Program-made: the position numbers and the translations under genes
The notes under the pieces: generated by a model
What the model saw: only the letters and a program-made list of their open reading frames with translations
Told to the model about the DNA's origin: nothing
Database searches by the model: none
Source of the DNA: an uncultured Mollicutes bacterium
GTDB lineage: Bacteria > Bacillota_I > Bacilli_A > Acholeplasmatales > Anaeroplasmataceae
Assembly (NCBI GenBank): GCA_947174785.1
Contig: CAMWKG010000001.1
Location: 62,001-126,000 of the forward strand
Direction: 5' to 3'
Length of the DNA: 64,000 bases
Shown: in pieces, positions 18,698-40,836 of the stretch
Layout of the letters: each line of letters opens with the position of its first letter
How positions within the stretch are numbered: position 1 is the first letter of the stretch

Positions 18698-21247
18698 CTA
18701 TTCTTCTTTTAGTTCATATAAAAGTTTTAAAGCATCTAGAGGGGTTAGACAGTTTAAATCAATCTCATCTAATCTCTTTTGTGTTTTTTCAGCTCTAGTT
18801 TCCTTTTGGACTTCTTCCTTAGAATCGTACTCTAAGAAGTTAAATAAATCCATAGAAACACCTTTATTCGTATTGGATTCTTCTTCTAAGGTATCTAAAA
18901 TCATTTTGCTTCTGGCGATTAAGGACTTAGGAAGTCCTGCAAGACTCGCAACATTAATACCATAGCTCTTATCTGTTGGACCATCTAAAACTTTATGTAA
19001 GAAGGCAACCCCTTGGTCTGTTTCTTTTGCTTCTACATGGACATTTTTAAGGCGCTTTAGTTTCTGATCTAATACGGTTAATTCGTGGTAGTGTGTAGAA
19101 AATAGTGTTACACAACCAATACGCTCATGAACGTATTCTAATATTGCTTGAGCTAAAGCCATACCATCATAGGTGGCTGTACCACGGCCAATTTCATCAA
19201 AAAGAATCAAGCTATCCTTTGTAGCATTTGTAATGGCATAATTTGCTTCCATCATTTCCACCATAAATGTAGACTGACCTGAAACCAAATCATCAGATGC
19301 ACCAATTCGAGTATAGATAGCATCAAATATCATTAAATCTGCTGCCTTCGCAGGTACAAAAGAGCCAATTTGGGCTAGGATGGCAATCGTTGCAAGCATA
19401 CGCATATAAGTTGATTTACCACTCATATTTGGTCCTGTAATCAGCATCATATTATACGTGTTAATCTCTACATCGTTGACAATGTATCCTGATTTCATTA
19501 TCGTCTCCAAAACAGGATGACGACCATCAACAATAGTGATTTTTCTATTTGTATTAAATGTAGGTCTAACATAGTTATATTTAACTGCAACATCACTTAA
19601 AGCAATATAGCAATCAATTGTAGCCAAATGATCTGCAAGATTTTGTAACGATACAATATAAGAAGATGCAATACTTCTTAATTTACTAAAAATCTCGTAT
19701 TCTAAGGATACGATTTGTTCATTAGAATGAAGGACAATATCCTCGTATTCCTTTAATTCCTTGGAAATAAAGCGCTCTGCATTTGCTAGAGTAGCTCTTC
19801 TTTCATAACCAATATCTTCAGGTAAGTTCGCTATTGCGCCCTTAGAAACTTCGATATAGTACCCTGTTACACGATTGTATCCAACCTTCAAGGTTTTGAT
19901 ACCCGTAAGCTCCTTTTGGCTTTTCTCATAATTTAATATCCATTCTTTACTATTAGCCAAAATAGATTTAATCTCATCTAGCTTCTCATCAAAGCCTTCC
20001 TTAATCATACCACCTTCCTTGATAGATAAAGGTGGATTATCCACTAATGCTTTAAACAATATAGAATATAACTCTTGATGATCTAGGATTTCTAAAGCAT
20101 AGCTTTGAGCACTAACTAAATCCAAATGATGAATTAAATCTTTAATTTGAGGAATATATTGCAAGGATTTTCTTAACCAAACTAAATCTTTAGCATTGGC
20201 ATTTCCAGAAGCAATTCTTCCAATAATACGCTCTAAATCGTATACACTTTTAAAATATTCCTTGATTTGAGCCTTTTCAAGATAGTGATGATTAAAGCAT
20301 TCAATAAAATCTAATCGATTTTGAATAGCATTACTGTCTAAAAGAGGCTTATCTAGCCATTTATGGAGCATTCTAGAACCCATAGCTGTTTCACAATGGT
20401 CTAAATGCCATAATAAAGAACCAGACTTATTATTGTATCTTAAGGTCTCACAAAGCTCTAGATTCTTCTTGGTAAAAGCATCAATATGTAAATATTGTTC
20501 ATGAATGTAGTTTTGAACTGGTTTTAAATGTGTTGGCATTTGTTTTTTTGTTTCCATAAAATAATGTAAAACTACACCAACTGCTGGATGATATTCTTCT
20601 TCAATATTGGATACCAGTCCTATCAATGTAGGTGGAATAGCTGCTTCCTCTACATGAGATAAGACAATTTGATTTTGTTTAACAAATTCAGATAGCCTTT
20701 GATTCACATATTTACTATCAATGACAATTTCTTTAATATGCAAGGATAGTATTTCATTCGCAAGTACCTCAAAGCTGTTTAATTTTGTGATATACCCTTC
20801 TCCTGTAGATAAATCACAGTAGCACAAAACAAAATCCCTCTTGATTTGAAGAATGCCTGCAATATAATTATTTTCTTTATCGTTTAATCCTGAATCTAAC
20901 GTTCCAGGTGTGATGATTTTAACTACGCCACGCTTTACAATGCCCTTAGCAGCCTTAGGGTCCTCTACCTGTTCAACGATAGCTACCTTATAGCCTTTAG
21001 AAATTAATCTTTCAGCATAGGGCTCATAAGCATGAAAAGGGACGCCACACATTGGTACTCGTTCCTCAACACCAGCATCCTTGCCTGTAAGGGCAAGCTC
21101 TAGCTCCTTAGCACCAGTATGGGCATCCTCAAAAAACATTTCATAGAAGTCTCCAACTCTATAAAATAATATTGTATCTGGATAGTCTTTTTTTATTTCT
21201 AAATACTGCTCCATCATTGGAGTGTACTTTACTTCTTTTTCTTTCAT
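18698..21247 (-). CDS. mutS: DNA mismatch repair protein MutS
   Basis: Recognises mismatches and small loops. Of 849 residues, the N-terminal mismatch-contact motif FYRVGDFYEMFFEDA is present, and the C-terminal ABC-type ATPase has ITGPNMSGKSTYMR and ILFDEIGRGTATYDG. The extreme C-terminus (LDALKLLYELKEE) is the usual tetramer/clamp tail. It is first of mutS-mutL-miaA-aroK-aroQ, 9 bp after the upstream acidic ORF. Confidence 0.98.
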   Translation of the reverse strand: MKEKEVKYTPMMEQYLEIKKDYPDTILFYRVGDFYEMFFEDAHTGAKELELALTGKDAGVEERVPMCGVPFHAYEPYAERLISKGYKVAIVEQVEDPKAAKGIVKRGVVKIITPGTLDSGLNDKENNYIAGILQIKRDFVLCYCDLSTGEGYITKLNSFEVLANEILSLHIKEIVIDSKYVNQRLSEFVKQNQIVLSHVEEAAIPPTLIGLVSNIEEEYHPAVGVVLHYFMETKKQMPTHLKPVQNYIHEQYLHIDAFTKKNLELCETLRYNNKSGSLLWHLDHCETAMGSRMLHKWLDKPLLDSNAIQNRLDFIECFNHHYLEKAQIKEYFKSVYDLERIIGRIASGNANAKDLVWLRKSLQYIPQIKDLIHHLDLVSAQSYALEILDHQELYSILFKALVDNPPLSIKEGGMIKEGFDEKLDEIKSILANSKEWILNYEKSQKELTGIKTLKVGYNRVTGYYIEVSKGAIANLPEDIGYERRATLANAERFISKELKEYEDIVLHSNEQIVSLEYEIFSKLRSIASSYIVSLQNLADHLATIDCYIALSDVAVKYNYVRPTFNTNRKITIVDGRHPVLETIMKSGYIVNDVEINTYNMMLITGPNMSGKSTYMRMLATIAILAQIGSFVPAKAADLMIFDAIYTRIGASDDLVSGQSTFMVEMMEANYAITNATKDSLILFDEIGRGTATYDGMALAQAILEYVHERIGCVTLFSTHYHELTVLDQKLKRLKNVHVEAKETDQGVAFLHKVLDGPTDKSYGINVASLAGLPKSLIARSKMILDTLEEESNTNKGVSMDLFNFLEYDSKEEVQKETRAEKTQKRLDEIDLNCLTPLDALKLLYELKEE

Positions 21248-21256
21248 AACTACCTC

Positions 21257-22192
21257 TTATTTAAATGCGTGTAGAATAGCAAAAATAGAGATAAAAACAC
21301 CAATGAAAATAATAACAGAAACCAAAGATAAAATAATAGGCTTCAAATGAAAATTCATTTTCCTGCTTCTAAAATAAGGATTATTTTCTAATGCTGGAAT
21401 ATCCTTTGGACTTTCATAAGGAACGTCCATAAGAGGTCCAGCTGGGACAGGGGGCATAAAAGCTGCAGGATCACTAGATGGTTGTGGGAGCATAGCTGTT
21501 GGATAAGTATAATCTGATGTCATATATTCAGGTGGCATCTGATTATTTGTTTCGAGCTGAACTATCGTTTCCATCATTTGTTCTAAACTGGCATCTGCAT
21601 AATCTGGTTCTTCTATAATCTCTTCTTCGTTTGAAGAAGGCTCAAGAATCTCTTCAATGTCCTCAGAATCCTTTGGTTCAAATTCCTCTGCATAGCTTTC
21701 ATTTTCAAGATTTTCTAAAGGCTCCTTTTCTGGTTGTTCTTCAATAACAGTCTCTTCCTTTGCATCCATATCAAGGACAGGAAGTACAACCTCTGTCTCA
21801 TCAAATAAACAAGTGTTTGTATTCTGATCAAAGCTTTCAACTACAAAAGTTTCCTCTACAATAGGTTCAGGAGTTGGTTCTTCAAGAGGTTGGGTTTCTT
21901 TACTTTCCTCTATCGTTTCTTCAACCTCATCTTCTTCTGGTTCAAAATTATAGGAATTATATTCATCATTGTCATCATATTCCTCTTCTTCCTCATCATA
22001 AAAATCAATTTCTTTTTTATGAACTGGCTCTTGAGCAACAAGAGTAGGCTTTTGATATGCCTTTCTTTTTGGCTTTGGCTCTGTTTGAATACGGATAATG
22101 GTTTCTATTTTTTCAGGTTCTGTCTTTTCAGGCTCTGGTGGAAGCTCTTCTGTCAACTCTTCTTCCTTAGGCGTAAAGACAACATTGTTCAT
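21257..22192 (-). CDS. Acidic tail-anchored protein, probably the -1-frame half of a fusion
   Basis: Function unknown. From the first ATG it is 311 aa: a long Glu/Pro-rich disordered region, a Pro/Met segment (AFMPPVPAGPLMDVPY) and one C-terminal membrane span (ILSLVSVIIFIGVFISIFAIL) ending in AFK, i.e. a tail-anchored topology with a cytoplasmic N-terminus. No convincing Shine-Dalgarno precedes the ATG at 22192. The frame is open upstream for 42 more codons, to an A10 run inside the neighbouring ORF. A single -1 shift there joins the two into one 737-aa protein. I therefore think this is normally made as a C-terminal extension, or that the A10 holds an indel. Confidence 0.65.
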   Translation of the reverse strand: MNNVVFTPKEEELTEELPPEPEKTEPEKIETIIRIQTEPKPKRKAYQKPTLVAQEPVHKKEIDFYDEEEEEYDDNDEYNSYNFEPEEDEVEETIEESKETQPLEEPTPEPIVEETFVVESFDQNTNTCLFDETEVVLPVLDMDAKEETVIEEQPEKEPLENLENESYAEEFEPKDSEDIEEILEPSSNEEEIIEEPDYADASLEQMMETIVQLETNNQMPPEYMTSDYTYPTAMLPQPSSDPAAFMPPVPAGPLMDVPYESPKDIPALENNPYFRSRKMNFHLKPIILSLVSVIIFIGVFISIFAILHAFK

Positions 22193-22296
22193 CTTTAGAG
22201 TTCCATTATCTCTAAGATTTTGAATTTTTTCTAAGATTTCATCAACTAGTTTTCTATCGACCTTTGTCGAAGTTTGTTCTTTAGGAGCTTTTTGGT

Positions 22297-23469
22297 TTAC
22301 CTTAGTGTGTTCCTGTTCTTTTTTTTTTGTTGAACTACTACTGTTTTCTTAGTAGTTGTTGTTTTCTTTGGCTGCTGAACAGATATGCCATGACTAATAG
22401 CAAGTCTTGCAGTTTCCTCATCTATATTTAAATATGGTAAAAGCTTTTGGATAATCTCTGTTACGATATCTTCTTGAGATTTCTTTTTCTTTGGCTTTAC
22501 GATTTCCTCTTCTTCAACTAATTCTTCTAGCTTTTCAATAGATTCAACCTCATCAGAATCTAAATAAATAACCTTTTTAGCTTTGCCTCTTTTGAAATTA
22601 TCAATTGCATCTAAATCAACTCTAAACTTAAGTGGTTCTGCAAAATCAGTACCAATAATCGTTTTAGCTTCAATATGAGCAAACTTTGCTTGTTTTACAA
22701 GGAATAAGAATAAATTAATTAGTTCCTCTTTCTTCATTACAGAAGATATACCAAGACCCTGTAATTTACAGAACTCATTCAATTGAGTAATAGTCATATT
22801 ACTTAATTCTCTTCCTAATACTAAGGTAAGCTTCTTTCTTGCTCTCATCATGTCTCTAACATATGAATAAAGATCTTCCTTCTTTAGACGTACTGGAATA
22901 TCAAAACCATATTTTAGACCTAGCATACGAATCTCTTCTTGGGAGAAGGAATCCTTTAATAAATCCTCTAACTTATTTGTTGGATAAGCATCAAATTCCT
23001 TTGTAAGATCTAAAGTCACACTAAAAATTGCTTTTGAATATGTTGAGAAAGTTTCCACTTTATATTTCTTCGCATTGATTAAGCGAGTAATTTCTCCATC
23101 CTGAAGATTAATACCAATATGATTGCGGATTAAAAGCTTCCATAAATTTTTACGGTAGATATAATAATCCTCTTCTGTGCCAATCTTTTCAAATAAATTT
23201 TGTAGCTGAAATTCTGTGAAATTTGCATAAGATTCTAAATTCGCAAAGGCATCCCTAGTAAGAGAGTGAGAATCTAGTGTTTTAATTCTTTCATTTAAAG
23301 CACTGGTCAAAGCCATTGCGTTAATCTTTCTTGGAATTTTAGTAGGACGTTCTGTAAAAAATTTCTTTGTCTGTTCTCCACTAAGTAAAGCAAGCTTAGT
23401 AGCAATAGTTTCTAGTCCCATTCTTTTATTGAAAACAACCACCATTTCCTTATCAGCAATATATTCCAT
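22297..23469 (-). CDS. Unknown protein with a SAP-like segment, 390 aa in frame 0
   Basis: Function unknown. The protein is helical and mostly basic in the N-terminal 270 residues. The part TQLNEFCKLQGLGISSVMKK followed by EELINLFLFL resembles a SAP/Rho-N helix-turn-helix, and an acidic-basic linker follows (EELVEEEEIVKPKKKK). The final residues KKKNRNTLR come from reading through an A10 run into a stop at 22297; a -1 shift at A-AAA-AAG instead continues into the acidic tail-anchored ORF. It has its own promoter (23508-23536). Confidence 0.7.
   Translation of the reverse strand: MEYIADKEMVVVFNKRMGLETIATKLALLSGEQTKKFFTERPTKIPRKINAMALTSALNERIKTLDSHSLTRDAFANLESYANFTEFQLQNLFEKIGTEEDYYIYRKNLWKLLIRNHIGINLQDGEITRLINAKKYKVETFSTYSKAIFSVTLDLTKEFDAYPTNKLEDLLKDSFSQEEIRMLGLKYGFDIPVRLKKEDLYSYVRDMMRARKKLTLVLGRELSNMTITQLNEFCKLQGLGISSVMKKEELINLFLFLVKQAKFAHIEAKTIIGTDFAEPLKFRVDLDAIDNFKRGKAKKVIYLDSDEVESIEKLEELVEEEEIVKPKKKKSQEDIVTEIIQKLLPYLNIDEETARLAISHGISVQQPKKTTTTKKTVVVQQKKKNRNTLR
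22318..22328 (-). promoter_or_regulatory. Slippery A10-G run: candidate -1 frameshift or transcript-slippage site
   Basis: On the minus strand ten A residues then G. Frame-0 codons are CAA CAA AAA AAA AAG, containing the heptamer A-AAA-AAG used by dnaX-type -1 frameshifting. After a -1 slip the next codons are GAA CAG GAA and the frame stays open through 21257. I see no clear stimulatory stem within 10 bases downstream. Confidence 0.55.
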
Positions 23470-23592: not shown

Positions 23593-23629
23593 AAAAAAGA
23601 AAAAGTCAAGAAAATTTCTTTGACTTTTT
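23593..23629 (-). terminator. Terminator of the pfl operon
   Basis: Hairpin with arms AAAAAGTCAA (23600-23609) and TTGACTTTTT (23620-23629), followed on the minus strand by a T-rich stretch; it includes part of the stop codon of the glycyl-radical ORF. Confidence 0.8.
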
Positions 23630-23858
23630 ACATCGCTTCGTGAATCGTACGAGCAATAACATCATCCTGTTGCTCTTTTGTAAGCTTGATAAAGTTTACA
23701 GCATACCCTGATACTCTAATGGTAAGCTGAGGATATTTTTCAGGATGCTTTTGTGCATCAAGCAGTGTTTCTCTATTAAACACATTCACATTTAAATGGT
23801 ATCCTCCGTTTCCCATATAAGCATCTAGCATTTGTACTAAATTGTCAACTCTAGACAT
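23628..23858 (-). CDS. Stand-alone glycyl-radical domain of pyruvate formate-lyase
   Basis: A 76-aa protein equivalent to the extreme C-terminus of pyruvate formate-lyase. It has [19 protein letters not shown] and the radical-site motif [11 protein letters not shown], with Gly51 as the predicted radical carrier. This is the same module as autonomous glycyl radical cofactor GrcA/YfiD. It starts one base after the pflB stop, in the +1 frame, with a purine-rich AAGGAAGAAG upstream. Since the adjacent PflB lacks this module, the two chains must form one active enzyme unless the split is a frameshift. Confidence 0.85.
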
Positions 23859-23859
23859 A

Positions 23860-25890
23860 CTATACTTCTTCCTTTCCTAGAGATTGTGGTGTTACAGAGA
23901 AGGTATTGGAAATTCCATCCTTTGAATATTCATAGGGTAACTTAGCTACTGATTCTAAGGAAGCAAGTGCACCTTTAACATCTCTGCCATGCATAGGATT
24001 TGCACCTGGTGCCAATGGCTCTCCAGCCTTTCTTCCATCTGGTGTATTTCCTGTATGCTTTCCATAAACTACATTGGAGGTAATGGTCAATATGGATGTT
24101 GTGGGAATAGACTCTCTATAGGTTGTATGCTTTTTAATTTTACTCATAAAGGTTTTCACAAGCCATACAGCCAATGAATCTACACGATCATCATTATTTC
24201 CATATTTAGGAAAGTCTCCTTCGATTCTAAAATCAGATATGATTCCCTTATCATTTCTTATTGGATAAACCTTAGCGTATTTTATAGCGGATAGAGAATC
24301 TGCTGCACAGGAAAGACCTGCAATACCTGTAGCAAAAAATCTTCTTACCTTTGTGTCATGAAGCGCCATTTCTAATGCCTCATAGGAGTATTTGTCATGC
24401 ATGTAATGAATCAAATTGAGCGTATTCACATAGACCCCTGCAAGCCACTCCATCATTTGTTCATATTTCATAATGACCTCATCATAGCATAATGGACCAT
24501 CCCCATTTATTCCTTCAAAGAGTGGAGACACTTGGAATGGCTCATTAGTTTTTGGATCAACCAGGAGTTCATCCTTTCCACCATTTAATGCGTAAAGTAA
24601 GCATTTGGCCAGATTAGCTCGTGCTCCAAAAAATTGCATATCCTTACCAACACGCATAGGAGATACACAGCATGCAATACAGTAATCATCTCCTAATTCT
24701 ATTCGCATCAGGTCATCTGATTCATATTGAATAGATGAGGTTTGAATGGAAATTTCTGCACAGAATCGTTTGAAATTTAAAGGCAGATTTTGACTCCATA
24801 AAACTGTAAGATTTGGTTCTGGGGCAGGACCTAAATTGATGAGTGTATGTAGAATTCTAAACGATGTTTTTGTGACCAAAGGTCTACCATCTACACCCAT
24901 ACCTCCAATAGATTCTGTAACCCAGGTAGGATCTCCTGAAAATAATTCATTGTAGGATGCAACACGCATAAATTTGATGATTCTTAATTTCATTATGAAA
25001 TGATCAATAAGCTCTTGAGCATCATGCTCTGTGATTCTATTATTTTTTAAATCTCTTTCAATGTAAATATCTAAGAAGGTAGAATTTCTTCCTATTGACA
25101 TTGCAGCACCATTTTGTTCTTTTGTTGCTGCTAAATAACCAAAATAAAGAGCTTGGATTGCCTCTTTAGCTGTTTTAGCTGGCTTTGAAATATCACATTC
25201 ATATATTTCAGCAAGCTTTTTTAAATTTTCTAAGGCTCTGATCTGTTCAGATAACTCTTCTCTATCCCTGATTTTATCTGCAGTCATTTCCCCATCAATT
25301 TCTTCTTTATCAAGCTTTTTGTGGCGAATCAGCTCATCTACTCCATATAACGCAACACGGCGATAATCCCCAACAATTCTGCCTCTTCCATAGGAATCTG
25401 GTAAACCTGTTAAAATATGTGCCTTACGACAGGCTCTCATTTGGCTTGTATAAGCATCATATACACCATCATTATGAGTTTTACGATATTTTGTAAAAAT
25501 TTCTTTGACTCTATCACTAACCTCATAGCCATACATCTGGCATGCTTGAACAGACATCTTAATACCACCATAGGGCTGCAAGGCTCTTTTAAAGGGCTTA
25601 TCTGTCTGTAAGCCAACAATCTTTTCTAAGTTCTTATCAATATACCCAGCCTGATGACTGACTTGACTAGAAATAATATCTGTATCTGCATCAAGTACAC
25701 CACCAGCCTCACGTTCTTTTTTGGATAACTCTAAAATTTCATTCCATAGAGTAACCGTAGCCTTTGTTGGTCCTTCTAAAAAACTAGAATCTCCCAAATA
25801 GGGTTCATAATTCTTTTGAATAAAATCTCTAACATCTATTTCACCCTCACACCATCTACCAGGCCTAAAGCCTTCCCATGCTTCTATCAT
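23860..25890 (-). CDS. pflB: Formate C-acetyltransferase lacking its glycyl-radical C-terminus
   Basis: Converts pyruvate and CoA to acetyl-CoA and formate anaerobically. It is 676 aa against about 740-760 for the usual enzyme. The catalytic cysteine pair is present in [14 protein letters not shown] (Cys407-Cys408). The chain ends at [13 protein letters not shown], where normal homologues continue for about 80 residues into the glycyl-radical loop; that part is encoded by the next ORF. Its start overlaps the pflA stop (ATGA). Confidence 0.93.
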
Positions 25891-36181: not shown

Positions 36182-37434
36182 TTATAAAACACCTCAAATA
36201 ATGTTTTTCTTGCTTCACTGATAAAATGTAAGGAACCTGTAATAACGAGTAATTCATCCTTGCCTAAGTATAAAACAGCCTTATGAATTGCCTCTTGGTA
36301 ATCCTCTATAACCTCAAAAGGCCTTACTGTATAATTCGTAAAATCTGAAGCACTTCCTGCTCGTTTATCTAGAATAGTTGTGAAAAAATACTCATCTGCA
36401 ACACTATCCAAGATTTCTAACATCTGTTTTGATGCCTTATCCTTTAGAGCAGTAAAAACGATTTTTATCCTATAATTTGGATAAGATATCTTTAAGCTTT
36501 CACATAAAGCCCTTATACCATCAATATTATGAGCCCCATCAATAAGAATATTTTCTTTAACAAACTCAAATCTTCCTGGCCAGGTTGTTTTATCTAAAGC
36601 AAGCTGAATAAGTTCTTTTGGAAAGTCATGTTCTAAATATTCCATCACCGCAATAGCAAGACTGGCATTGTAGGCCTGATAAAGTCCCTTTAAAGAGGTT
36701 TTAAAGTCTCTTCCATTGTAAGTAAAATGAGTACCCTCCTTATCCATAAAAACATTAGAAACTGATGGTTTAATAAAATTCATATCAACTTTATTTTTCT
36801 TTCCATAGGTAGAAAAATAAGGAATTAGACCTTCATCTACAGCTGTAAAACAAGGAATCCCTGCTCTTGTAATGCCTAGCTTATGTGTAGCAATTTCTTC
36901 TAATGTATTTCCTAGCTGTACCATATGATCATAACCAATATTTGTTATAACAGCTACCTTTTTTTCTAAGGCATTGGTCACATCTAAACGTCCACCTAGA
37001 CCACATTCTAAGACAAGAATCTCAATATTTTGTTTCTCAAAATAAAGAAGTGCCATTAAGAAGGTAAGCTCAAAAAAGGGAATGGTATCCTGATAGTTTT
37101 GTTGATAAAGCTTAGAAAACTCCTCTAATCTTCTTGTGTAAGATAAAACCTCTTCATCTGTTATATAAGCTCCATTAATTTCAATCCGTTCATTAAAGGA
37201 TATTACATAAGGAGAAACAAATAGTCCTACTTTTTTTCCTCTTAAGAATAACATTTGATGAAGGAAGCTTGCAGTAGAACCTTTTCCGTTTGTTCCAGCA
37301 ATATGAATAATAGGATAATTTGTTTTAATATTTAAAAGCTTTATGCATTCTTTAATTCTTGATAAATCTTCTCTTTTATGAGATTTCTTTTGTTCATAAA
37401 GCCATGCGAGTGCTGCTGCATAATCCTTTATCAT
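36178..37434 (-). CDS. folC: Folylpolyglutamate/dihydrofolate synthase
   Basis: Adds glutamate to folates, and may also make dihydrofolate. The protein is 418 aa with Mur-ligase-fold P-loop HIAGTNGKGSTASFLHQML, LECGLGGRLDVTNAL and ILIDGAHNIDGI. The ATG at 37434 overlaps the valS TGA (ATGA), preferred over the open extension to 37461. Confidence 0.95.
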   Translation of the reverse strand: MIKDYAAALAWLYEQKKSHKREDLSRIKECIKLLNIKTNYPIIHIAGTNGKGSTASFLHQMLFLRGKKVGLFVSPYVISFNERIEINGAYITDEEVLSYTRRLEEFSKLYQQNYQDTIPFFELTFLMALLYFEKQNIEILVLECGLGGRLDVTNALEKKVAVITNIGYDHMVQLGNTLEEIATHKLGITRAGIPCFTAVDEGLIPYFSTYGKKNKVDMNFIKPSVSNVFMDKEGTHFTYNGRDFKTSLKGLYQAYNASLAIAVMEYLEHDFPKELIQLALDKTTWPGRFEFVKENILIDGAHNIDGIRALCESLKISYPNYRIKIVFTALKDKASKQMLEILDSVADEYFFTTILDKRAGSASDFTNYTVRPFEVIEDYQEAIHKAVLYLGKDELLVITGSLHFISEARKTLFEVFYK

Positions 37435-40034
37435 AGATTGACCTGTGCTAAGGCAGCACATACTTCATCGTATTGTGCTTCATAATCTTTAAGCTTAGCT
37501 TTCTCAGCATCTATTTTAGCTTGAGGTGCCTTAGATAAGAAGTTCTCGTTAGAAAGCATTGCACGTGAACGAAGAAGCTCACGCTCTAATCTTTCCTTAG
37601 AAGCCAAAAGTTTAGCCTTTGCTTCTTCTATGTCTACTAAATCAGATGTTGGAATGTATAGATTTGCACAAGACAATACTACAACAACCATACCATCTAC
37701 CTTTATTTCATCTAAAGTTAAAGTGAGTTCTTTAGGATTTGTAAAGCGTGTTAAATAGCTTTTGGTTGCTTCTAGCTTTTCTAAAGTATCTTTATCCTTA
37801 CAGCTTATAAAGATACTGATTGGTTTAGAAGGAGCCTTATTTGCCTTTGCGCGTTCATTTCTGATGGAAGTGATAATTTCTACCAAATCATCAAAGGCTT
37901 CCTTAGCTGATTTAAATTCAAAAGCTTTATTTTTCTTTGGCCATGGTGCTATCATAATAGAGGCTTCATCATGAGGTAAAGCCTGATATAGCTCTTCTGT
38001 GATAAATGGACAGAATGGATGAAGCATCTTTAAAATTGCTTTTAGAACATAGACTAATACATTTTTTGTCATCTGTTCATTCACTTTATCTCCACTGCTT
38101 AAATCCACCTTAGAAATCTCAACATACCAAGATGCAAAATCATCCCATACAAAGCCATAAAGCTCCTTAGCTGCCTCTCCTAGCTCATACTTATCAAAAT
38201 TATAATCTACCATATGGATAGTATGATTTAGACGAGTAAGGATAGATTTAGAAGCGATATTTAGCTTACTAGGATCTATTTCAGTTGGAGTATATTCTTC
38301 TCCTAAGTTCATTAATACATAACGGGTAATATTCCAAATTTTATTTAAATAATTCCATGAAGCCTCAATTTTTGTTTCATCAAAACGCAAATCTAGACCT
38401 AATGCGCCACCAGTTGTCAAGAAATATCTTAAGGAATCTGTACCATACTTAGCAATCACGTCAAATGGATCCACTCCATTTCCTAAGGATTTACTCATCT
38501 TTCTTCCATCCTTTGCACGGATTAATCCATGGATGACGATATCCTTAAATGGTGCTTTATGTGTAAATTCAATTCCTTCAAATAGCATTCTTGATACCCA
38601 GAAGAAAATAATATCATAGCCTGTAACTAAACAGCTCGTTGGATAGTAGCGTTTAAGATCCTCTGTTTCTTCTGGCCAACCCAAAGTTGAAAATGGCCAT
38701 AAAGCGGAGGAAAACCATGTGTCTAAAACATCCTCATCCTGTACCCAGCCTTCTCCAGGACACTCTACTTGAACTCTAACTTCCTCATCCTTATACCAAG
38801 CAGGAATGCGGTGTCCCCACCAAAGCTGTCTTGAAATACACCAGTCTTGAATATTAGTTAGCCAGTGATTTAATGTTTGTGTAAAGCGTTCAGGAACAAA
38901 GCGATATTCTTTATTATCTAATACCTGCTTTGCTAGAACATCCATCTTAACAAACCACTGCTTAGAAAGTCTTGGCTCTACAACAACGCCAGTTCTTTCA
39001 CTATGACCTACAGAGTGGATAATGCTTTCCCTTTTGATAAATAATCCAGATTTTTCTAAATCCTTTAAAAGAGCTTCACGGCAAGCAAAGCGGTCCATTC
39101 CCTCATATTTACCTGCCATAGCATTCATTGTTCCATCATCGTTCATACATAAAGTCATATCTAAATGATGACGTAAGCCTACCTCATAGTCATTTGGGTC
39201 ATGGGCTGGAGTTACCTTAACACAGCCAGTTCCAAATTCCATATCTACATAGGAATCCGCAATAACAGGAATCTTAATGCTTGTTCCTGGAATATAAACC
39301 TCTTTCCCTATGATATCCTTATAGCGAACATCTTCTGGATGTACCATTATGGCTTGGTCTGCAAACATTGTTTCAGGACGTGTAGTAGCAATCGTTACAA
39401 AGCCTGTTCCATCAACAAATGGGTAGTTGAAATGATAAAATGCACCTTCAACATCCTTATGCTCTACCTCAATATTGGATAAAGCGGTACGTGCTTCAGG
39501 ATCCCAGTTAATAATTCTTTTTCCTTGATAAATATAGCCCTTTTTATAAAGCGTTATAAATACATGATTTACTGCTTGGTTAAGCTTTTCATCCAAGGTA
39601 AATCTTTCTCTTGTGTAATCTAAGCTTAATCCCATAGCTGCCCATTGCTTACGAATTGTTGCAGCATAATCTGCCTTCCACTGCCAAGCTACCTTTAAGA
39701 ACTCCTCTCTTCCTATATCATAACGAGAGATGCCCTGTTGTTTTAGTTTTTCATCAACCTTTGCCTGTGTTGCAATACCGGCATGGTCCATACCAGGAAC
39801 CCATAATGCATCATAGCCCTGCATTCTTTTTCTTCTAATAATGACATCCTGAATGGATGTATCACAGGCATGACCTATATGAAGCTTTCCTGTTACATTT
39901 GGTGGTGGTATCACAATGGTAAAAGGTTCCTTAGATTTATCCCCCGCAGTGAAAAATCCTCCCTTTAACCAGAAATCATATTTTCCTTCTTCAACTAATT
40001 TAAAATCATATTTTGGTTCTAAAACTTTACTCAT
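37431..40034 (-). CDS. valS: Valyl-tRNA synthetase
   Basis: Charges tRNA-Val. The protein is 867 aa with PPNVTGKLHIGHACDTS (HIGH), GRKMSKSLGNGVDP (KMSKS), an editing CP1 domain (TIATTRPETMFADQAIMV) and the C-terminal coiled coil of ValRS. The ATG at 40034 overlaps the acetyltransferase stop by 8 bp and is preceded by AAAGGA. It is the gene that explains the upstream T-box leader. Confidence 0.97.
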   Translation of the reverse strand: MSKVLEPKYDFKLVEEGKYDFWLKGGFFTAGDKSKEPFTIVIPPPNVTGKLHIGHACDTSIQDVIIRRKRMQGYDALWVPGMDHAGIATQAKVDEKLKQQGISRYDIGREEFLKVAWQWKADYAATIRKQWAAMGLSLDYTRERFTLDEKLNQAVNHVFITLYKKGYIYQGKRIINWDPEARTALSNIEVEHKDVEGAFYHFNYPFVDGTGFVTIATTRPETMFADQAIMVHPEDVRYKDIIGKEVYIPGTSIKIPVIADSYVDMEFGTGCVKVTPAHDPNDYEVGLRHHLDMTLCMNDDGTMNAMAGKYEGMDRFACREALLKDLEKSGLFIKRESIIHSVGHSERTGVVVEPRLSKQWFVKMDVLAKQVLDNKEYRFVPERFTQTLNHWLTNIQDWCISRQLWWGHRIPAWYKDEEVRVQVECPGEGWVQDEDVLDTWFSSALWPFSTLGWPEETEDLKRYYPTSCLVTGYDIIFFWVSRMLFEGIEFTHKAPFKDIVIHGLIRAKDGRKMSKSLGNGVDPFDVIAKYGTDSLRYFLTTGGALGLDLRFDETKIEASWNYLNKIWNITRYVLMNLGEEYTPTEIDPSKLNIASKSILTRLNHTIHMVDYNFDKYELGEAAKELYGFVWDDFASWYVEISKVDLSSGDKVNEQMTKNVLVYVLKAILKMLHPFCPFITEELYQALPHDEASIMIAPWPKKNKAFEFKSAKEAFDDLVEIITSIRNERAKANKAPSKPISIFISCKDKDTLEKLEATKSYLTRFTNPKELTLTLDEIKVDGMVVVVLSCANLYIPTSDLVDIEEAKAKLLASKERLERELLRSRAMLSNENFLSKAPQAKIDAEKAKLKDYEAQYDEVCAALAQVNL

Positions 40035-40569
40035 ATTTCTTTTTCCTTTCATATTCTTCTTTTGTCATCGAATAAAAGCTCGCATCAATCAATCTACCAT
40101 CATATAGCTTCTTATAAGAACAAAGTGTCCCATCATAATTGAAGCCACATTTTTCAGCGACTCGCTTACAGCGATAATTATCTGTATGATGTCCAACCTC
40201 TAGTATTTCACAATCTGTTTTTTCAAAAGCATAATGAATCATAAGCTTTACAGCATCAGTCATAATTCCCTGATTCCAATAGGCACTATTTAAAGAAAAT
40301 CCTAAAGATTTCGCCTTATTATACTTACGTAAACCAGTATTATATAAGGAAATAGTTCCTACTAAAGAATCCGTATCCTTTAAAACGATTGCGTAGGTTT
40401 CTTTGCTAACAATTTGACCATTTAAGACTCGACTTGCTATATCCTTAGAGGGAAATGGCTTCCACCCTGCAAAAGGACCAACATTAGGATCTTTGCCATA
40501 CTCAAAGTATGCATCCAAATCACTATACCTTAAATCTCTAATATTAATCTTTTCTCCAATAATACGCAA
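40027..40569 (-). CDS. GNAT N-acetyltransferase (RimJ/RimL-like)
   Basis: A 180-aa acetyltransferase with the layout of ribosomal-protein or aminoacyl acetyltransferases: RDLRYSDLDAYFEYGKDP, GTISLYNTGLRKYNKAKSLG, the acetyl-CoA-binding FSLNSAYWNQGIMTDAVKL and RCKRVAEKCGFNYDGTLC. The start is TTG at 40569 with GGAGG eight bases upstream. It is the first gene after the T-box. The substrate is unknown; location before valS invites but does not prove a link to valine or tRNA. Confidence 0.9.
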   Translation of the reverse strand: MRIIGEKINIRDLRYSDLDAYFEYGKDPNVGPFAGWKPFPSKDIASRVLNGQIVSKETYAIVLKDTDSLVGTISLYNTGLRKYNKAKSLGFSLNSAYWNQGIMTDAVKLMIHYAFEKTDCEILEVGHHTDNYRCKRVAEKCGFNYDGTLCSYKKLYDGRLIDASFYSMTKEEYERKKKYE

Positions 40570-40593: not shown

Positions 40594-40625
40594 AAAAAAT
40601 CCTTAAAAGATTCCTCTTCTAAGGA
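40594..40625 (-). terminator. T-box intrinsic terminator
   Basis: Eleven-base-pair minus-strand stem (one G-U) between 40615-40625 and 40600-40610 with a 4-base loop, then T6. It competes with the antiterminator that uses 40634-40651. Confidence 0.9.
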
Positions 40626-40830
40626 CGAAAAAATTTCCGTGGTACCACCCTAGTTCTATATTTCTATAGCACTCATTTTCCTTTAACGCAGGAATCTACG
40701 AAATAAACTACTAAAAATTTCACCTATTTAGCTCCCTAGCTACCTTCAATACATTTCATAAAGTCATTTCACCAAACAGACTTTTCTCTAAAATGAAAGT
40801 GAGTATCTACTCCTCTAGTTCATCGCTTAT
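40594..40830 (-). promoter_or_regulatory. T-box riboswitch leader, predicted valine-specific
   Basis: The minus-strand leader contains the conserved T-box element AGGGTGGTACCACGGAAA (40634-40651) just before the intrinsic terminator. Uncharged tRNA would pair its NCCA end with TGGT in this bulge and favour antitermination. A candidate specifier codon GTA (valine) lies at 40741-40743 within GAAGGTAGC on the 3' side of stem I. TGGT predicts an A discriminator base, which fits tRNA-Val. The first genes downstream are the acetyltransferase and valS. Confidence 0.92.
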
Positions 40831-40836
40831 GCTAAA

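Follow-up and report, generated by a model that had tools for sequence, protein, structure and literature searches.

The closest described systems are tssM1 of Citrobacter rodentium and tssM3 of Yersinia pseudotuberculosis, type VI secretion genes subject to transcriptional slippage on a poly-A tract (PMC4256274); at the A11 tract of tssM1, about 20% slippage leads to full-length and shortened forms (PMC4256274). At a poly-A slippery site, the dnaX gene yields two products that differ at the C-terminus and stand in a fixed ratio, through RNA polymerase slippage on A9 in Thermus thermophilus and through ribosomal -1 frameshifting on A_AAA_AAG in E. coli (PMC1088944, PMC5009743). In Blochmannia and Buchnera, A-tract frameshifts are kept across species while the coding frame is still selected (PMC3017870).

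The Mollicutes locus described here shares with tssM1 and tssM3 a poly-A tract in a membrane-protein gene and a long and a short form, which were shown experimentally there and are predicted from sequence here; moreover, in both cases a slip yields, or here would yield, the long form in one relative and the short form in another (here genomes G000 and G006, respectively). The protein and its role are unrelated to those of tssM, seven species share the tract, and the membrane anchor is C-terminal, beyond the slip site, so that the short form should lose it. With dnaX the locus has in common the poly-A slippery site and, by prediction, the two C-terminal variants, and with the Thermus gene in particular the presence of an AAG-reading tRNA-Lys and the lack of visible stimulators, but the gene is a different one and, in six of the seven tract-bearing species, the frame as written in the DNA leads to the short product. 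As in Blochmannia and Buchnera, the frame break is kept across species under continued coding selection; however, long coding A-tracts are many in those genomes, whereas the present one is nearly the sole one and the others are apparently selected against.

The window, i.e. the whole stretch of 64,000 nucleotides that was analysed, is part of a 1.84-Mb metagenome-assembled genome (G000) related to Anaeroplasmataceae (Mollicutes). On its minus strand, the reading frame of ORF1 ends in GTT CAA CAA AAA AAA AAG AAC AGG AAC ACA CTA AGG TAA, where the ten A's occupy positions 22328-22319 and the following G position 22318, which places the slippery tract C-A10-G (CAA AAA AAA AAG) at 22318-22329 as the putative recoding site. 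ORF1 (22300-23469, or 22297-23469 with its stop) encodes a short product of 390 aa that is predicted to be soluble and has a conserved N-terminal domain at residues ~1-335; out of 60 related genomes, 52 contain a homologue. The TAA stop of ORF1 (22297-22299) lies 6 codons past the tract. The -1 frame is open from within ORF1 through the downstream ORF2, with 353 codons after the shift (21260-22318, minus strand) and a total of 737 aa. Read from its own ATG, ORF2 covers 311 aa (21257-22192, minus strand), and the preceding 42 codons of the -1 frame (22193-22318), which include the helix motif LVDEILEKIQNLR, have no upstream start and would be translated via the frame transition only. On re-reading, the coordinates, the frame, the 42 upstream codons and the 737 aa given by the initial annotation all hold.

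Two other features of the window were observed. Pyruvate formate-lyase is split (23628-25890, minus strand) into a 676-aa core and, directly following it, a separate 76-aa ORF with the glycyl-radical motif RVSGYAVNF, and it is split likewise in eight other genus members; since the two parts are offset in frame by different amounts in different members, this looks like a true gene split and not recoding. A T-box leader (RF00230, 128.9 bits) lies at 40618-40832 (minus strand), upstream of ORFs at 37431-40569.

The N-terminal half had been called SAP-like from the letters alone, and Pfam lends this support with a Rho_N / SAP / HeH-like helix-extended-helix segment at residues 221-251 (22717-22809, minus strand; Rho_N E=0.0025): at 18.2 bits the match of the window protein stays below the curated cut-off of 24.9, but 21 of 28 homologues match Rho_N at E<=0.1, the best with E=2.3e-10. 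Most homologues thus share this segment with Rho_N, SAP and HeH proteins (Pfam PF07498, PF12949, PF02037), from which the present protein differs by its large conserved N-terminal region and by an additional acidic linker and C-terminal anchor. This segment is the only Pfam match; an NCBIfam search gave nothing convincing for the protein, and searches of the PDB by sequence and by profile gave chance-level matches only. An AlphaFold2 model of ORF1, built from five sequences, reached a mean pLDDT of 44 and was left out of fold searches. The acidic linker and the membrane segment that had been noted in the extension were both recovered: the linker is ~29% D+E and contains FEP-type as well as NPYF motifs, and the transmembrane helix at the C-terminus (IILSLVSVIIFIGVFISIFAI; 21275-21337, minus strand) has a Kyte-Doolittle mean of 2.96, compared with a maximum of 1.18 in the short form. 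A C-terminal hydrophobic segment is also present in most orthologues of the family.

The initial annotation had seen in these two products an appealing switch. The difference between them, a short form of ~390 aa predicted to be soluble and a long form of ~737 aa predicted to be anchored, follows from the sequence; we infer that this difference may also serve a function, and the four congeners with a continuous gene and no tract (G002, G004, G003 and G008) indicate that two products are not essential for every member of the genus.

Whether the two ORFs are two genes, with ORF2 starting from its own ATG at 22192, can be judged from the region before this ATG. The ATG is present in three close species (G000, G007 and G009), which is what separate genes would call for, but it is absent from G005, G010 and G001, and where it exists its Shine-Dalgarno sequence is weak or absent, close to the earlier remark that there is none. 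Upstream of the ATG lie a conserved helix (LVDEILEKIQNLR and relatives) and the 42 codons, for which dN/dS among the three closest species lies at 0.16-0.35 in the -1 frame, compared with 0.9-2.9 for the two remaining frames. Across the whole extension dN/dS is <1 for most pairs, with a few distant pairs close to or above 1 where dS is nearly saturated. Moreover, the -1 frame contains no ATG, GTG or TTG for 453 nt in G010 and for 402 nt in G001, so that the downstream frame is under coding selection and at the same time unreachable from a start of its own; judged from these frames, ordinary independent initiation of the extension would be impossible in at least two species. Most relatives, too, have one continuous ORF. 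An independent ORF2 as the sole explanation was rejected on the purifying selection ahead of the ATG and on the start-less frames of G010 and G001, and separate genes are accordingly given next to no probability. With the tract and the -1 frame both conserved and under selection, and with a start lacking in two species, the two ORFs make up a single gene that carries a conserved recoding site, and the proposal of a programmed frameshift or transcript slippage, made from the single sequence, gains support from the same three observations.

The comparison within the genus covered 11 metagenome-assembled genomes, one per species, and the gene is present in all of them. Six of the 11 species have it interrupted at one common QKKK site; five of these (G000, G007, G009, G010 and G005) have C-A10-G in identical phase, and the sixth, G001, has C-A11-T with the same frame consequence. 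In all six, the 0-frame is closed by a stop after 2-6 codons, and the -1 frame stays open for 326-372 codons to the TM helix. A seventh species, G006, has G-A10-C in the opposite phase, where the frame is continuous in the DNA, so full length is the default and a slip would truncate the product. A homopolymer of at least about 9 A at the frame transition is thus conserved among the homologues, as A10 or A11 in seven species. In other genera the orthologues are single ORFs, mostly with a hydrophobic segment at or near the end. Between the trio around G000 and the G010/G005 pair, ORF1 has diverged to dS of ~1.5 and above, near or at saturation and in one of these comparisons beyond estimation, with the tract unchanged.

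Homopolymer indel or sequencing error had been named as the main alternative. It was rejected, as the same out-of-frame A10 occurs in five separately assembled species genomes, which include public assemblies from at least two projects, and A11 occurs in a sixth; the alignment of homologues from related genomes, which had been proposed beforehand as a check, shows the out-of-frame tract to be shared by these six species.

Each of the five genomes contains CA10G exactly once, each time at this site, and tracts of ten or more A's number only ~1-5 in total per genome across the 11 genomes. The statistics of A-runs rest on 260 kb of the G000 genome, 215 kb of it coding (the window and loci L045-L055): within this coding sequence, A-runs stop at 8 except for this A10, runs of nine or more were observed once compared with ~17 expected after synonymous shuffling, and all other sampled [QEK]KKK sites are interrupted by AAG. 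Most other A10 tracts in the genus fall outside any recognisable gene; two, each known from a single genome, are in frame and show no frame break, in a HAD-type phosphatase and a serpin-like protein (named by eye from their sequence). On these counts, the tract is far beyond chance.

The gene tree places the tract-bearing species together with G002 and G004 in one clade with weak inner branches; in the tree of the neighbouring genes, G001 groups with G008 and G002 with G006. The two trees thus disagree, and for the tract a single gain followed by losses needs no more steps than repeated gains. At locus L007, the G002 gene groups with that of G004 (99/99) and its neighbour genes with those of G006 (97/95); the G002 copy of the gene may be recombinant. 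In another genus of the family (genome G023, locus L020), an in-frame A9 stands at codon 608 of 810, upstream of a C-terminal membrane segment, where a slip would leave a shortened, soluble protein, possibly a convergent case.

How the frame is restored can be considered in terms of two mechanisms with an identical product, the polymerase slipping on the tract or ribosomes slipping back by one base on A_AAA_AAG in an unaltered A10 mRNA, as in E. coli dnaX. The dnaX-type heptamer pointed out in the initial annotation is indeed correctly framed in five species, ribosomes are known to slip on the heptamers A_AAA_AAG and A_AAA_AAA alike (PMC3711429), and such shifting may work without stimulators. 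However, slippage is preferred since the tract has 10-11 A's, whereas the heptamer needs only 6 A's and a G; since both phases occur among relatives, with the opposite-phase A10 in G006; since no Shine-Dalgarno-like sequence upstream and no consistent stem-loop downstream were found near the site (stem z near 0 in most species); and since there is a dedicated tRNA-Lys(CUU), so that AAG is not read by tRNA-Lys(UUU) only, as in E. coli. In the case of Thermus dnaX, a review links such a tRNA to slippage and not to ribosomal shifting (PMC5009743); the tRNA set considered here is an incomplete list of 29 recovered, with tRNA-Lys(UUU) not among them. An Rfam search gave nothing at the recoding site. 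G001, with A11-T, has no in-frame A_AAA_AAG and neither has G006, hence the dnaX-type heptamer is probably not the essential feature. Avoidance of long A-runs, as seen in the coding sequence of G000, is taken as a sign of slippage-prone sequence, with replication slippage as a possible other cause (PMC1088944), and either could underlie the avoidance here. On this evidence, RNA polymerase slippage is considerably likelier than ribosomal -1 shifting, which we regard as unlikely; a mixture of the two is possible. A length change of A10 through replication slippage, with the assemblies having caught an OFF state, could be imagined for a membrane-anchored product, and coding homopolymers are classic contingency loci. 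But all six out-of-frame species fall in one shift class, which would be rare under random length change, and what goes with the preserved frame relation is a difference in flanks (A11-T, G-A10-C), not a scatter of lengths. A10 tracts are also nearly absent elsewhere in coding sequence, and the gene adjoins mutS and mutL, which stabilise homopolymers; phase variation is thus very improbable.

The single gene directly upstream of mutS-mutL encodes a Rho_N/SAP-like protein with an acidic linker and a predicted C-terminal anchor, and is held out of frame at A10 (or A11) in a subset of the genus. We regard it as probable that slippage of RNA polymerase at the tract sets the ratio of soluble to anchored product. 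In this model, the polymerase would slip there, and some of the transcripts would gain one A (or another frame-restoring number) and be translated normally into the anchored protein of ~737 aa; faithful transcripts would give the soluble protein of ~390 aa, with the nucleic-acid-binding-like domain and without linker and anchor; and the rate of slippage would set the proportion of the two. The same mechanism could, however, operate without the ratio mattering: an A-tract frameshift fixed by drift could be tolerated, rescued by leaky slippage and locked in, with a short form that has no role. As the two readings differ only on this point, their probabilities overlap, and the second, although we give it somewhat less than an even chance, is a serious rival on function. 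The orthologues of G002, G004, G003 and G008 do without the tract, so the short form would be dispensable in these species, and slippage rescue of poly-A frameshifts has been reported in Buchnera and Blochmannia (PMC3017870). Against it, G000 strongly avoids coding runs of nine or more A's, unlike Blochmannia with >100 such tracts (PMC3017870), G006 has A10 although its gene is continuous in frame, and the short form always retains the whole conserved domain.

The gene lies upstream of mutS in the contexts checked, with mutL and miaA next in most. In the window, mutS (18698-21247, minus strand) has a Shine-Dalgarno sequence (GAGG) that overlaps the stop of the extension (TAAGAGGTAGTTATG, 21247-21259, minus strand), and this overlap suggests translational coupling to mutS. 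Slippage as a working ratio device, dividing a nucleic-acid-binding protein encoded in the mutS operon between a soluble and an anchored pool, may even tune mutS-mutL, since untranslated message past the early stop runs straight into mutS; we consider this reading rather doubtful. If true, a homopolymer sensitive to mismatch repair would sit inside the repair operon itself.

The comparison gives good support to the locus as a selected poly-A recoding site in a Mollicutes gene that is chromosomal and non-mobile, and no such site was found reported for Mollicutes in the literature searched. The kind of mechanism is already known; what is new, as far as that literature shows, is the gene, the lineage and how deeply the site is conserved. 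An annotation pipeline would split such a gene in two or label it a pseudogene. The species of the genus supply variants with A10 out of frame, with A11, with A10 in frame and with no tract, on which the use and the loss of slippage can be tested, and the case shows how strongly such a genome purges its other long A-tracts.
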